A stretch of DNA of 50,546 nucleotides from a virus. The stretch spans positions 1 to 50,546 of IMG/VR virus record IMGVR_UViG_3300021180_000017. One strand, given 5' to 3'. A model generated the notes under the pieces. That model saw nothing but the letters and a program-made list of their open reading frames with translations, searched no databases and was not told the DNA's origin. The position numbers and the translations under genes are program-made. This document shows positions 36,822 to 40,924 of this stretch, piece by piece. Position 1 is the first letter of the stretch. Every line of letters begins with the position of its first letter.

Positions 36822-36969
36822 GATCAAATACGTAATGGAGGAAGATGTATTCGCCGACGCTCTTGATATCGAGGACGCAGAATACAAGATGCAAGAGGCC
36901 TTCATGGAGGACTTCCCTGAAGCCACCTCTATAGAAGTCTTTGATATCGAAGAGGTCAAGAAGAAGTAA
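36802..36969 (+). CDS. 55-residue acidic protein
   Basis: MTAFIGKIKYVMEEDVFADA onward; about a third Asp/Glu. Its TAA overlaps the next ATG (TAATG). Strong acidity could mimic DNA, but this is only a guess. Confidence 0.55.
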   Translation: MTAFIGKIKYVMEEDVFADALDIEDAEYKMQEAFMEDFPEATSIEVFDIEEVKKK

Positions 36970-37463
36970 TGGCAAAGAAGAGTTACAATGAGTATTTCCA
37001 AGGTAAAGGCAAGTGGATCAAGGTTAACATCCCTGATCCGAAGTTTCGTAAATGGAGTATGCAGCTATATCCTAACGACCAGAGTTTGGATAAGTTTCGT
37101 AAACTCCAAGAAGAAGGTCTCCTTACTCGTCTCAGGAAAGACGAAGAAGGTTATCACTTCATCCTGAGCCGTCATCAGTCAAAAGTAATGAAGGGTGAAC
37201 TCGTCACATTCGGTCCACCTAGATTACTCGACAAAGACGGATCAGTCTTAGAAAATAACCTCAAGATTGGTGATGGTTCAGACTGTACTGCTAAAGTCCA
37301 GGTGTACTATTACAACAAACCTACCGGAGGCCAAGGCGTAGCGATGCGCTGGGAGGCATTGAAGGTAGACAACCTCGTTCCTTACCCGATCGACGATCTT
37401 CCTCCACATGAGTTGGAGCAAGTCCAAGGTTTGAAGGAACAACCACCCGAACAGTTATGGTAA
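36969..37463 (+). CDS. Putative single-stranded DNA-binding protein
   Basis: A 164-residue protein starting MAKKSYNEYFQGKGKWIKVN with W/Y-rich strands (KWSMQLYPND, KVQVYYYNKPT, GVAMRWEALKV), an OB-like spacing, and an acidic C-terminal tail ending in an aromatic residue (EQPPEQLW), a hallmark of gp2.5-type SSBs. Its place among the replication genes supports it. Exact family uncertain. Confidence 0.65.
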   Translation: MAKKSYNEYFQGKGKWIKVNIPDPKFRKWSMQLYPNDQSLDKFRKLQEEGLLTRLRKDEEGYHFILSRHQSKVMKGELVTFGPPRLLDKDGSVLENNLKIGDGSDCTAKVQVYYYNKPTGGQGVAMRWEALKVDNLVPYPIDDLPPHELEQVQGLKEQPPEQLW

Positions 37464-37689: not shown

Positions 37690-37938
37690 ATGTCTTGCTG
37701 GAATTGCTTTGACGACTGTGACTGCGATTTATGCTCCAACTACGACTACGAGGAAAAGAAAATGTCAATCAAGAACTACGCTGTGTCTTCCAGCGGAGAT
37801 TTCGACACGTTAGACGAAGCCGTCGCTTACGCTTCTAGACGTGCCCAGAAGAACACCGACACCTTCCGCGTCTACAAAGCCGTGAAGGAAGTCGGTCCTA
37901 CGACACCGAACGTGATCGTCACCGACGTGACGGTCTGA
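37690..37938 (+). CDS. Small protein, paralogue B, with Cys-rich N-terminus
   Basis: From ATG 37690 the product has a MSCWNCFDDCDCDLCSN start (five Cys in 15), then the paralogue domain starting MSIKNYAVSSSGD at ATG 37762. GAGGAAAAGAAA before 37762 makes the shorter start (58 residues) also likely. Last ORF before the giant non-coding region. Confidence 0.55.
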   Translation: MSCWNCFDDCDCDLCSNYDYEEKKMSIKNYAVSSSGDFDTLDEAVAYASRRAQKNTDTFRVYKAVKEVGPTTPNVIVTDVTV

Positions 37939-37945
37939 TAAGATT

Positions 37946-37979
37946 GGGCGGGAGATTTCGCCTCCTTTCCCTCCCGCCC
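37946..37979 (+). terminator. Strong GC hairpin after paralogue B
   Basis: GGGCGGGAG and CTCCCGCCC form a perfect 9-bp stem with a 16-nt loop; ATTCCTTAGTTT follows. The weak U tract makes it either a terminator or the 5' boundary of the structured RNA. Confidence 0.65.
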
Positions 37980-37984
37980 ATTCC

Positions 37985-39200
37985 TTAGTTTATAGACACC
38001 CCGCGAGTATCAAACCTACGGTTGGCTGGATAACAGGTGAGGGAATAAACTCAATACAGCCCTAGGGATCAGGTCCTAGACTTGCGGCAAGAGCGCACCT
38101 GTAGGACTAACCGTCCAAAGGTGTAAACTACTGAGTGTGCGCTTGGTTCCCCCAAGATACGATCGAAGGGGCAATACCTACCCGGGAGCCTAAACCGGAT
38201 ATGTATTCAGCCGGGTGGCCGGTAGAGCTGTCCGTCTTTAGCAGCAGACTGCAACGGACTGGATTAACTCAAACCACTGCTGTTGCGATACGGCGTCTGC
38301 TGAAGAGTGACGACACGTGCAATACAGCAGAGTAGACCAGACCGTGGTGTCTGGTGAAATAATAGCGTCGCGGTACGAGTGCGCCCGGTGCTGCCGGGAG
38401 TGAGCGGGACGACCATCCTGTGAATAACTCTGACCTATTGGACCGAGGGTACCGTAAGGCTTAGCGACATCCGGTTAGTCGTACTATCCGGAACTGCGAA
38501 GTACAGTGTGATGTCTGTGAGGACCAGTAGTAGTCATGGAGGGTTGAAGTCCCTTCCCCCTCGTAGAGGGGCCACGGATCAGGGTGCGAACATAAACTCA
38601 CATGTAGAGACAACTCAGCTCGAAATATCAACGGAATAGCTAGGCAAAAGAACGGCTGAAGGTTTAATCCGATCGCCGACGTGCCAGTAAGGTAAGCCCT
38701 GAACTTACCCCAGTGGTGGTCTCGACAAACCTCGACGGTGTGAAAGCCGTTTCTCTTAGGAGACTTGACATAGCGGAGGGGTAAGAAGATCAAGAGAAGT
38801 CGTTCATCCGATTGTCTATCGGACGAGGAACGCAATTCATCGTGTCGCCCCCGTCGCCAACGCGCAGAGCTAGGGAATGGGGTTATGGCTGTGGGAAACC
38901 CCCCACGTAACTGAAGAGGTGACTGTGAGTATCGCGGGTACATTGCCTTGACCTTCTCTTATACACAGAGAAACGCAACGGGATGCTAAACCGATAAACC
39001 GCACGAAAACCTGCCCTGAACCTACGACACCCCTAAATCTTCATTCACTCTGGACGAGAGTGTGCAGCATCGGCGAGAGCCGAGTAGGAGGTTGCTTATG
39101 AAGGAGACAATCGGATACATCCATGACATCCAACCACCTTAAGAGAAAGGGGTCATACACCCCTGATCTAGTCATCTACAGATGACGTATTTATTAACAG
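37985..39200 (+). ncRNA. Giant structured non-coding RNA candidate (about 1.2 kb)
   Basis: No ORF here has a ribosome site or protein-like composition. The two longest frames (plus 38135-38335; minus 38461-38943) run across hairpins and against the local gene direction or context. At least fourteen perfect hairpins are visible, e.g. 38104-38116, 38142-38156, 38337-38354, 38384-38398, 38557-38571, 38691-38709, 38807-38823, 39046-39062, 39070-39083 (GAGA, a GNRA loop), 39148-39164 and 39171-39186. Long-range stems also occur: 38242-38249 with 38295-38302, and 38093-38098 with 38137-38142. A 38540-38554 stem-loop has a 7-nt TTGAAGT loop like a T-arm. The size and ornateness recall GOLLD/ROOL-type phage RNAs, but no family match can be claimed. 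Ends are uncertain by tens of bases. Confidence 0.75.
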
Positions 39201-39212
39201 CAGGAGAGGAAA

Positions 39213-39551
39213 ATGTGGAACCAACCATATTTCAACATGCCTCCTCAGTCTAACGGAGGCTACATCTTAGTCCCCGTCGGAGGACCCACGAGTCCGACAA
39301 ATCTTACAGATAAACCCAAGTCGTTGAAGCGGGCGTTGAAGCAAGCAATACGTGACCGTGAGACGATCGACGAGACAATCAAGTTGTTACAAGAAAAAAG
39401 TAAAGGCAAACACGGCAAGAAACCTTCAGAAGGCAGTCCGTTCAATTACGTCTACGCCAGCATGCTGATGATGTTATCAGCTCCATTCCTAGGACTGGCT
39501 GAACTGTACGGTCTGAAGATGATGCTATCGTATATCACCGCAACTCCATAA
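39213..39551 (+). CDS. 112-residue C-terminal-TM protein
   Basis: MWNQPYFNMPPQSNGGYILV with GCAGGAGAGGAAA before the ATG. A Pro/Lys-rich centre and charged helix (LKRALKQAIRDRETIDETIK) precede hydrophobic segments (YVYASMLMMLSAPFLGLAEL). First gene after the giant RNA. Unknown; possibly tethers something to the membrane. Confidence 0.6.
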   Translation: MWNQPYFNMPPQSNGGYILVPVGGPTSPTNLTDKPKSLKRALKQAIRDRETIDETIKLLQEKSKGKHGKKPSEGSPFNYVYASMLMMLSAPFLGLAELYGLKMMLSYITATP

Positions 39552-39564
39552 TAGAAATCATAAT

Positions 39565-40431
39565 TTGAATATTCATACTTTAGTACAGGACATATATGAC
39601 GTCGTTGGAAGTAAACAAGGATGGTTCGACGACGCACTCGCTGAAGGATTTAGCAGAGAACTTGGACTTAAGCTTGTGGAAAAAACTAAACCACGAGACG
39701 AAGTTCCTACTCTCCGTCTATCTCAGATGGGTGAAGTCTGCCCAAAACAACTGTGGTACTCCATTCATAGCCCAGGCTCACAAGAAGACGTCCCACCCTA
39801 CGTCAAAATCAAATTCACATACGGAGATATTCTAGAAAGTCTTTTAATCGCTATGGCGAAGGCCGCCGGCCATGAAGTGACGGGAGAACAAGATGTTGTC
39901 TACGTTGATGGGATTGCCGGCCACCGTGACTGTGTTATCGACGGTTACGTTGTGGATGTCAAGTCTGCTGCTTCTCGTCCTTTTCAGGAAATCAAGAACA
40001 AAAGGATGGCTCAAGACCCTTTTCTTTCTGTTTACCTGGACCAACTTGACGGGTACTTGGTTGGGAGCGCAGATGATCCTCTGGTCAGGGTCAAAGACCG
40101 CGGTTATATCTTGGCTATTGACAAAACCTTAGGACATCTGACACTCTATGAACATACACTCAGAGATTTGCATATCCGACAAAGAATTAAAAAGTATAAA
40201 GAAATTATTAATCAAGATGTTTCCCCAGGATGCGAATGTAAAACAGTTGCTGACGGAAAGTCCGGGAATATTAAACTTGACACTAAAGCCAGCTACTCTG
40301 CCTACAAACACTGCTGTTTTCCACATCTTAGGACTTTCTTATACAGTTCAGGACCAGTCTACCTCACCAAAGTCGTGAGGAAGCCGGATGTTCCGGAAGT
40401 TGACAGAAACGGTAAAATAGTTTATAATTAA
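39565..40431 (+). CDS. PD-(D/E)XK exonuclease with cysteine cluster
   Basis: A 288-residue nuclease (TTG start at 39565; weak ribosome site). The core GHRDCVIDGYVVDVKSA (about 118-134) supplies the Asp and the D-x-K of the PD-(D/E)XK site. Cysteines in GEVCPKQLWY, GCECK and KHCCF are arranged like the Fe-S cluster of Cas4/AddB-type nucleases. The C-terminal FPHLRTFLYSSGPVYLTKV block looks like a conserved phage signature. It likely replaces T7 gp6 in host DNA degradation and recombination. Confidence 0.75.
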   Translation: MNIHTLVQDIYDVVGSKQGWFDDALAEGFSRELGLKLVEKTKPRDEVPTLRLSQMGEVCPKQLWYSIHSPGSQEDVPPYVKIKFTYGDILESLLIAMAKAAGHEVTGEQDVVYVDGIAGHRDCVIDGYVVDVKSAASRPFQEIKNKRMAQDPFLSVYLDQLDGYLVGSADDPLVRVKDRGYILAIDKTLGHLTLYEHTLRDLHIRQRIKKYKEIINQDVSPGCECKTVADGKSGNIKLDTKASYSAYKHCCFPHLRTFLYSSGPVYLTKVVRKPDVPEVDRNGKIVYN

Positions 40432-40440
40432 GAGGTCATT

Positions 40441-40620
40441 ATGGTTCCGAAGTGGTACAGACGTGCTAGGAGATTTATCCTCCAGCAACGTCAGACAGAA
40501 TTGCAGAAGGCAATTAAGAGATATCCGTTGTCAGAACGGTATCAGATGAGATGTGAAGAATTACTTTCAATTGAAACAGAACTCAAAGAACTCGAGGCGG
40601 AACTCGTATCTGCTTCATAA
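40441..40620 (+). CDS. 59-residue basic coiled-coil protein
   Basis: MVPKWYRRARRFILQQRQTE then LQKAIKRYPLSERYQMRCEE; AAGAGGTCATT upstream. Long helix with basic N-terminus and acidic heptads at the end. It overlaps endonuclease VII by 68 nt. Confidence 0.55.
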   Translation: MVPKWYRRARRFILQQRQTELQKAIKRYPLSERYQMRCEELLSIETELKELEAELVSAS

Positions 40621-40924
40621 GTACGGTATTACTGAAGATGATTACCAAGCATTATTTCAGAAACAAAGAGGATTGTGTGGATGCTGTGGGAGGCCTGCTT
40701 CCGTATTTAAACGAAGGTTCGCACTTGACCATGACCATTCGACAGGTGAGATCAGGGGATTACTCTGTTTATTTTGTAACAGATACGTCATCGGGAGATA
40801 TCGTAGACCCGATGGAATTACGCAATTACAAAAAGCAATAAAATACCTTAATAAAAAATATACCGGATGGTTCGTACCAAAAAGAAAGAAACGCCATGTA
40901 CGACGAAGAAGTAAACATAAATAG
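40553..40924 (+). CDS. Recombination endonuclease VII (HNH-type)
   Basis: A 123-residue protein, GTG start at 40553 (overlapping the previous gene by 68 nt). YGITEDDYQALFQKQRGLCG then CGRPA, LDHDHSTGEIRGLLCLFCN and the Cys pairs C..C...C..C match the T4 gp49 family: two zinc-binding CxxC and an HNH-like LDHDH. It resolves branched DNA before packaging, replacing T7 endonuclease I. The start codon is the least certain part. Confidence 0.88.
   Translation: MKNYFQLKQNSKNSRRNSYLLHKYGITEDDYQALFQKQRGLCGCCGRPASVFKRRFALDHDHSTGEIRGLLCLFCNRYVIGRYRRPDGITQLQKAIKYLNKKYTGWFVPKRKKRHVRRRSKHK

Follow-up and report, generated by a model that had tools for sequence, protein, structure and literature searches.

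A probable new class of large structured phage RNA with permuted tRNA-like domains, a Pro-Pro-stop micro-ORF, and a linked membrane-protein gene

The locus and searches for known RNAs

The window analyzed here, meaning the whole stretch of DNA under study, is IMG/VR record IMGVR_UViG_3300021180_000017, which comprises 50,546 nt from an uncultured phage. Positions 37943-39551 hold an ORF-poor stretch, a micro-ORF with its own Shine-Dalgarno sequence and a Pro-Pro-stop ending, and a gene for a protein of the tail-anchored type, all located between genes for a single-stranded DNA-binding protein (SSB) and a Cas4-like exonuclease (Table 1). Two small ORFs lie between the SSB gene and the gene-free stretch. 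Directly 3' of the exonuclease gene is an endonuclease VII-type gene (40553-40924; Pfam PF02945, E 1e-21) of a kind that only some relatives carry. At three loci (L016, L017, and L019), the DNA polymerase gene is split by a stretch matching this endonuclease VII-like protein, and the interruption resembles intron- or intein-like homing.

Table 1. Positions of the cassette, its internal features, and the flanking genes in the window
Feature	Position	Strand	Basis or remark
Gp2.5-like ssDNA-binding protein, flanking gene	36969..37463	+	PHROG 112, E 1.6e-4
GC hairpin, 10 bp, TGGGCGGGAG/CTCCCGCCCA	37945-37954/37971-37980	+	Directly 5' of the RNA; from sequence
Large structured noncoding RNA, ~1.1 kb	37981..39086	+	Ends approximate
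Degenerate permuted tRNA-like module (probable); closing helix TGTGAG (38516-38521) / CTCACA (38597-38602)	38516..38602	+	Relaxed descriptor
T-arm-like hairpin GAGGG-TTGAAGT-CCCTT	38539..38555	+	Loop departs from tRNA TTCRANY at position 56 (G)
Capped 6-bp hairpin CCCCTC-GTA-GAGGGG, in the place of an acceptor stem	38557..38571	+	Sequence; directly after the T-arm-like hairpin
GNRA (GAGA) tetraloop hairpin TCGGC-GAGA-GCCGA	39070..39083	+	Adjoins the micro-ORF Shine-Dalgarno
Shine-Dalgarno GGAGG of the micro-ORF	39087..39091	+	Sequence
Micro-ORF MKETIGYIHDIQPP*, 14 codons, ends Pro-Pro-TAA	39098..39142	+	Conserved ORF type
Hairpin AGGGG-TCATACA-CCCCT	39148..39164	+	5 nt past the stop
Second hairpin GTCATC-TACA-GATGAC, T-rich tail	39171..39186	+	Before the ribosome site of the next gene
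Small protein, tail-anchored type	39213..39551	+	Shine-Dalgarno AGGAGAGG at 39202
Cas4-domain exonuclease, flanking gene	39565..40431	+	PHROG 1990, E 2e-24

An ORF scan of the window revealed no credible ORF within 37943-39097, in agreement with the initial annotation, which had described this region as free of genes. The longest candidates (66 aa on the + strand and 160 aa on the - strand) and others within the RNA are without evident counterparts in relatives, and no conserved reading frame runs through the RNA except for the micro-ORF at its 3' end. The GNRA tetraloop and the well-formed downstream gene that had been reported are present as described. The upstream GC hairpin is also present, with 10 bp rather than the 9 bp originally given. 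It might possibly serve as a 5' boundary or processing element, and was rejected as a canonical terminator because it has no T run.

The many hairpins noted in the initial annotation do exist, but their abundance alone does not exceed chance. The minimum free energy of 37985-38980 has a z-score of -1.25, and three of 20 shuffled sequences fold as stably. The evidence that lifts this RNA above chance is therefore comparative, and consists of its constant position and length, covariation, and + strand T-arms and D-arms of the tRNA type in the corresponding gaps of relatives. The assignment of a large RNA to this stretch is likewise based on the absence of an ORF, the ORF-poor slot in relatives, the lack of an Rfam match, covariation within a related cluster, and the restriction of T-arms in relatives to the + strand.

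No Rfam family matches any part of the window at gathering score, and a permissive Rfam search of 37900-39260 yielded nothing convincing. Models for GOLLD and ROOL gave no match in either search, even up to E 10 in the latter. Weak Rfam matches to the glutamine riboswitch (21.9 bits) and to microRNAs were dismissed because they fall below gathering scores. Among 10 relatives, Rfam found nothing in the gap and only two ordinary tRNAs outside of it, and the model for OLE RNA matches neither the window nor these 10 genomes. Rfam 15 holds no such family as the one described here.

ARAGORN recognized no tRNA and no tmRNA in the window. When applied to 23 relatives, it called only three ordinary tRNAs, present in three of the 23 and located kilobases upstream of the gap, and none inside the gap. 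A canonical tRNA array was rejected because no tRNA is called in the window. A tRNA gene with an anticodon cloverleaf and a tmRNA were rejected because neither program recognizes one, in the case of tmRNA both in the window and in relatives.

It is very unlikely that the RNA is a diverged member of the GOLLD or ROOL class. Both are phage-borne and similar in size, and the linker of GOLLD can sometimes hold tRNAs (PMC12286853), but the negative model searches of the window and of the 10 relatives argue against membership, as does the lack of an adjacent tRNA array.

A DNA similarity search of phage records revealed none that resembles the window. Similarly, nucleotide comparison of the RNA with phages and all fetched relatives recovered no homologue, and the sequences are too diverged to align. 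The nucleotide search for homologues proposed in the initial annotation was unproductive for the RNA in the window. Relatives do carry gaps in the same slot, and one cluster of these exhibits covariation.

Comparative evidence from related phages

Relatives were gathered by searches with the DNA polymerase and the Cas4-like exonuclease, which produced well over 100 viral loci. After removal of duplicates, 84 loci (window included) span the region from the SSB (or polymerase) to the exonuclease. In ~75 related uncultured phages, the order of the slot is SSB, gap, small membrane protein, and Cas4-like exonuclease, and its gene-free portion is typically 1.2-1.8 kb. The ORF-free run has a median of 1495 nt (quartiles 1216-1760) among the 61 loci with an identified membrane gene, a value that depends on the definition of an ORF. 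Closer relatives have the same layout, in which a long ORF-poor stretch is followed by the small gene and then the exonuclease. The RNA, micro-ORF, and membrane gene of relatives lie on one strand in constant order, and the cassette has a fixed position across a clade of uncultured phages, with all three parts jointly missing in sister phages. Specifically, in eight more distant phages (L106, L108-L111, L114, L193, and L194) that share the polymerase and exonuclease, the long gap RNA, the Pro-Pro-stop ORF, and a membrane gene of the cassette type are all absent. One of them, L194, carries a single stray T-arm. Cultured roseophages with related genes have only ~0.6-1.0 kb in the slot, as calculated from coordinates.

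Gap sequences evolve fast and can be aligned only within clusters. Full-length alignments of the larger clusters contained too many gaps for structural analysis, and so covariation was tested on one well-aligned domain. This alignment, from the best cluster, includes six sequences and 401 columns of a central domain with 74% mean column identity, and the copy in the window is not among the alignable sequences. Changes on both sides were observed for 33 of the 82 predicted pairs, compared to 15.6 +/- 2.6 in shuffles and 1-8 with slid strands. In the same cluster, 92.6% of cells pair versus 34-45% when slid, a control that is biased for the percentage paired because the structure was predicted from the same alignment. 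That bias alone does not by itself account for the two-sided changes. Together with the Rfam negatives, the gaps in the same slot, and the lack of any frame other than the 3' micro-ORF, the covariation in this one cluster supports the earlier suggestion of a new class of large structured phage RNA.

A separate motif, CCGGTGRCAGACGTGATCAGYC, recurs in the gaps of L006, L010, L016, L017, L018, L059, L092, L105, and others, ~1 kb before the membrane gene. Its ends form a short covarying stem (TGAC/GTCA, TGGC/GCCA), and GGAGGCTAAA often lies ~50 nt upstream of it.

A k-mer survey of 77 gap regions, among which the sister phage L111 was counted, identified GGTTCRANYCC, corresponding to the tRNA T-loop, as the most over-represented motif. 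When a full T-arm is defined as a 5-bp stem with the loop TTCRANN, 91 examples (71 different 17-mers) are found on the + strand in 112,699 nt of gaps, whereas 0.1 would be expected from first-order Markov randomisations. There are none on the - strand of the gaps and none in 590,525 nt of flanks. These T-arms are distributed over 54 of the 77 loci, and many relatives have one to four per RNA. Because the other 23 loci lack a strict T-arm, the module is frequent rather than universal.

Ordinary intergenic debris, composed of decayed tRNA genes and lost ORFs in a permissive spot, would also generate fast-diverging sequences, and the copy in the window is no more stable than its shuffles. Nonetheless, such an origin is hardly credible when weighed against the two-sided covariation, the confinement of T-arms to one strand with zero in the flanks, the constant slot and size, and the linkage to a micro-ORF and a membrane gene.

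Many T-arms are followed on their 3' side by a short hairpin, a tRNA-Leu-like D-arm (UGGCGNAANNGGYANACGC), and a strand complementary to the sequence immediately 5' of the T-arm. The clearest module, from L025, reads GCCCAU UGUU [GCAGG UUCAAAU CCUGC] [GGGGGA CAGC UCCCCC] UG [GCG CAAUUGGUAGA CGC] AUGGGU. This module is a tRNA in circularly permuted order, which proceeds from the anticodon 3' strand through the variable region, T-arm, loop-closed acceptor stem, positions 8-9, and D-arm to the anticodon 5' strand. The invariant features of the tRNA core fit this arrangement (U8 with A14, U48, G18G19 with U55 and C56, and T54 with A58).

A strict descriptor, requiring a 5-bp T-arm, a capped acceptor or linker, a D-arm with GG, and a closing helix, identifies 20 modules in 20 loci, compared to 0.2 per shuffle (mostly 0), none on the - strand, and one in the flanks. 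A first scan for permuted modules with gaps of up to 24 was set aside because 97 of its 123 matches were adjacent ordinary tRNA genes, and it was repeated with gaps of no more than 17. In 11 diverse modules sharing a 19-pair structure, 57 cells show two-sided change (19.2 when shuffled, 7-14 when slid), and covariation extends to all six closing-helix pairs. This covariation is supportive rather than independent, given that some helices were selected by the descriptor and that long variable arms were trimmed for alignment. A covariance model built from the 11 modules found ~30 further loci at E <= 0.01, or ~40 when the training loci are included. Its matches are on the + strand and almost all within the gap, and the few outside are mainly at real tRNA-Leu genes.

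The closing helix that joins the module to the RNA is 5-10 bp in length and mostly exceeds the 5-bp anticodon stem, and the variable arms and acceptor loops often carry insertions such as the conserved loop GUAUCCUAGAA. These features indicate that the modules are grafted tRNA-like domains, not tRNA genes. Overall, a permuted tRNA-like domain is very probably a component of this RNA class.

The probable corresponding module in the window is degenerate. A relaxed descriptor (T-arm-like hairpin, capped hairpin, and enclosing helix) is matched there and in 22 of the 77 family loci, and by 0.2% of randomised stretches (p ~0.002). There is no clear D-arm after the capped hairpin of the window, and the covariance model gives a partial, non-significant match at this module (9.1 bits, E 0.64). 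We consider it somewhat probable that the window's copy does hold a permuted tRNA-like domain in degenerate form.

Permuted modules are also present in unrelated viral contigs (L198, L200, L214, L216, L218, L225, L229, L276, L280, L288, L310, and L314). Several of these contigs exceed 100 kb, and the modules often reside within or beside ordinary tRNA arrays, where Rfam and ARAGORN detect only the ordinary tRNAs. In genomes of Bacteroidota (Dokdonia, Aquimarina, Tenacibaculum, and other; L315, L317, L320, L321, L325, L326, L328, L329, L333, and L334), a T-arm, a capped short hairpin, and a tRNA-Leu-like D-arm occur in line, and further T-arms are often ~65-100 nt away. These bacterial arrays look like fused or chained tRNA-like units and mostly fall outside of ARAGORN calls.

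The micro-ORF and the membrane protein

The initial annotation held that no ORF with a ribosome site exists in this region, which proved incorrect. A GGAGG sequence at 39087 and an ATG at 39098 open the 14-codon micro-ORF, and this type of ORF is widely retained. In 58 of 61 loci (window included), the membrane gene is closely preceded by a Shine-Dalgarno sequence, a start codon, and 8-24 codons ending in Pro-Pro-stop, whereas 0.32 loci would be expected from randomised sequence, and none occur in the interior of the RNA. The first Pro codon varies over all four synonyms (CCT in 22, CCA in 17, CCG in 11, and CCC in 8), which indicates that the micro-ORF is translated. CCT serves as the last Pro codon in 49 and UAA as the stop in 57, suggesting an added constraint at the RNA level. 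The residue preceding Pro-Pro is mostly Arg (25) or Gln (22). Beyond Pro-Pro-stop, the peptide sequence is not conserved and varies freely. The sequence CCTCCTTAA was first read as an RNA motif, an interpretation abandoned because its codon pattern is that of Pro-Pro-stop. Past the Pro-Pro-stop, a GC hairpin was counted in 46 of 59 loci, a raw figure not set against shuffles.

The protein encoded next in the window has a Pro/Tyr-rich N terminus, a charged middle, and a C-terminal transmembrane helix. A profile made only from relatives finds it with E 1.5e-9, and the next best ORF of the window scores 0.46. Proteins of this family are 67-118 aa long, and have a charged fraction of ~0.39 before a transmembrane stretch whose end lies at a median distance of 13 residues from the C terminus. 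They correspond to no Pfam or PHROG family. The protein of one relative has no match among known phages, and that of the window has no close relatives among viral contigs. The initial annotation had overlooked the Pro-Pro-stop ORF and its linked membrane protein, as well as the tRNA-like modules. We are highly confident that the locus represents a new RNA class with a three-part cassette formed by the large RNA, the Pro-Pro-stop micro-ORF, and the tail-anchored membrane protein.

Ribosome stalling at Pro-Pro-stop is known for E. coli (PMC2998420; see also PMC7246954), and by analogy it is assumed here to occur in the host of the phage. Stalling of a leader peptide at termination is a known cis-acting device, as represented by TnaC (PMC8429421). 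The phage micro-ORF resembles such termination-arrest leaders in being a short ORF that ends with proline(s) and a stop directly upstream of a gene. It differs from leaders of the TnaC type by its location at the 3' end of a large structured RNA, ahead of a phage membrane protein, and by the conservation of Pro-Pro-stop only.

These features can be combined into a proposed mechanism, which we regard as the most likely one. One transcript might extend through the RNA, micro-ORF, and membrane gene. The RNA would fold to form a stable scaffold, in which the tRNA-like elbows perhaps serve as modules of tertiary structure and also lure tRNA-binding or ribosomal partners. A ribosome on the micro-ORF would stall at the Pro-Pro-stop, at the 3' end of the RNA. 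Because CCNCCUUAA is complementary to Shine-Dalgarno sequences, the stalled ribosome could free the ribosome site of the next gene: by keeping this anti-Shine-Dalgarno-like sequence and the following hairpin occupied, it would turn membrane-protein translation on. The stall may also tie the ribosome to the RNA, and the membrane protein, through its charged cytoplasmic part, would set the complex at the membrane. As a whole, an RNA of a new class on the + strand, set in a cassette with a scaffold and arrest mechanism, is the best explanation and has an even chance of being right. Arrest-gated expression of the membrane protein is plausible at slightly below an even chance, and a trans-acting scaffold that engages translation is rather less likely than that.

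The main alternative is that the RNA is a giant cis-acting 5' leader whose sole job is to control the translation or stability of the Pro-Pro-stop ORF and the membrane gene, in which case the tRNA-like domains would serve folding, processing by RNase P or RNase Z, or mRNA protection. This possibility is a serious one, though rather unlikely. The parts always share one order and one strand, no clear terminator or promoter-like site was found between them, and TnaC provides a precedent. However, known leader controls are far smaller than a 1.1-kb multi-domain RNA, the commitment of 2% of the genome to one leader is rare for phages of ~50 kb, and the tRNA-like modules lie several hundred bases away from the genes.

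Known RNAs and possible roles

GOLLD and ROOL form homo-oligomeric RNA cages and often, but not always, occur beside tRNA islands. The RNA described here is likewise a large, multi-hairpin RNA encoded by a phage, but it has permuted capped tRNA-like domains, a Pro-Pro-stop ORF, and a membrane gene, and it has neither a match to their models nor a tRNA array beside it. Giant phage RNAs are grouped as a kind by size only, and the content of this RNA is unlike that of any of them, which sets the class apart. The OLE RNA of Firmicutes also adjoins a membrane-protein gene, whose product, OapA, binds the RNA. In contrast, the phage RNA has no Rfam match to OLE, is carried by a phage rather than by Firmicutes, and neighbors the gene for an unrelated, small, single-helix protein without a Pfam family.

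The modules themselves can be compared to two types of permuted RNA. Circularly permuted tmRNA precursors, found in alpha-proteobacteria and cyanobacteria, share the succession of T-arm, acceptor strand, loop, acceptor strand, and D-arm, joined via an anticodon-like helix. Unlike these, the phage modules give no tmRNA match with Rfam or ARAGORN, often have an acceptor loop of 3-5 nt with no CCA to release, can lack the acceptor entirely, and accompany up to four T-arms per RNA. Algae and Archaea have circularly permuted tRNA genes (PMC3218864), which similarly present tRNA halves in permuted order with the acceptor closed in the transcript. The phage module differs in having no anticodon, a joining helix of mostly 6-10 bp, a core that is like class II tRNA-Leu, and a location inside a kilobase RNA. 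A full-text literature search, which covered few subscription journals, returned no title or abstract reporting permuted tRNA-like domains in phages. We conclude that this is a new RNA class, and is not GOLLD, ROOL, tmRNA, or tRNA.

The structure of the modules also raises the possibility of a tRNA decoy, in which permuted capped elbows titrate host factors that act on tRNAs during infection, with defence nucleases, T-arm modification enzymes, and rescue of the tmRNA/SmpB type as proposed targets. The elbow core is preserved nearly letter for letter (U8, A14, U48, G18G19, T54, U55, C56, and A58), the acceptor end is not free, which would be expected for a decoy but not for a substrate, and the nearby Pro-Pro-stop peptide is a motif that triggers rescue. 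Still, this role is unlikely: the anticodon loop is gone, such that anticodon nucleases would not bind, and the T-loop of the window's copy is degenerate. The scaffold and arrest mechanism can be extended to a kilobase-sized RNA machine through which the phage would act on host translation, using permuted uncharged tRNA mimics, arrest at the Pro-Pro-stop of its own 3' micro-ORF, and membrane docking by its own tail-anchored protein, a scheme that we regard as quite improbable in its entirety.

To our knowledge, very few RNA classes approach or exceed 1 kb outside of rRNAs and introns, and the phage examples, GOLLD and ROOL, have no known function. The class described here provides two handles that those RNAs lack, namely a recognizable permuted capped tRNA elbow and a pair of linked gene products (a putative termination-arrest peptide and a membrane protein). 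The latter suggest a testable link to translation. Moreover, permuted tRNA-like domains escape tRNA finders and Rfam, and pattern scans have now found them in other phages and in some bacterial genomes. If the machine acting on host translation proves true, the cassette would in effect trap ribosomes or ribosome-rescue factors at the membrane, or offer them a membrane-bound platform.
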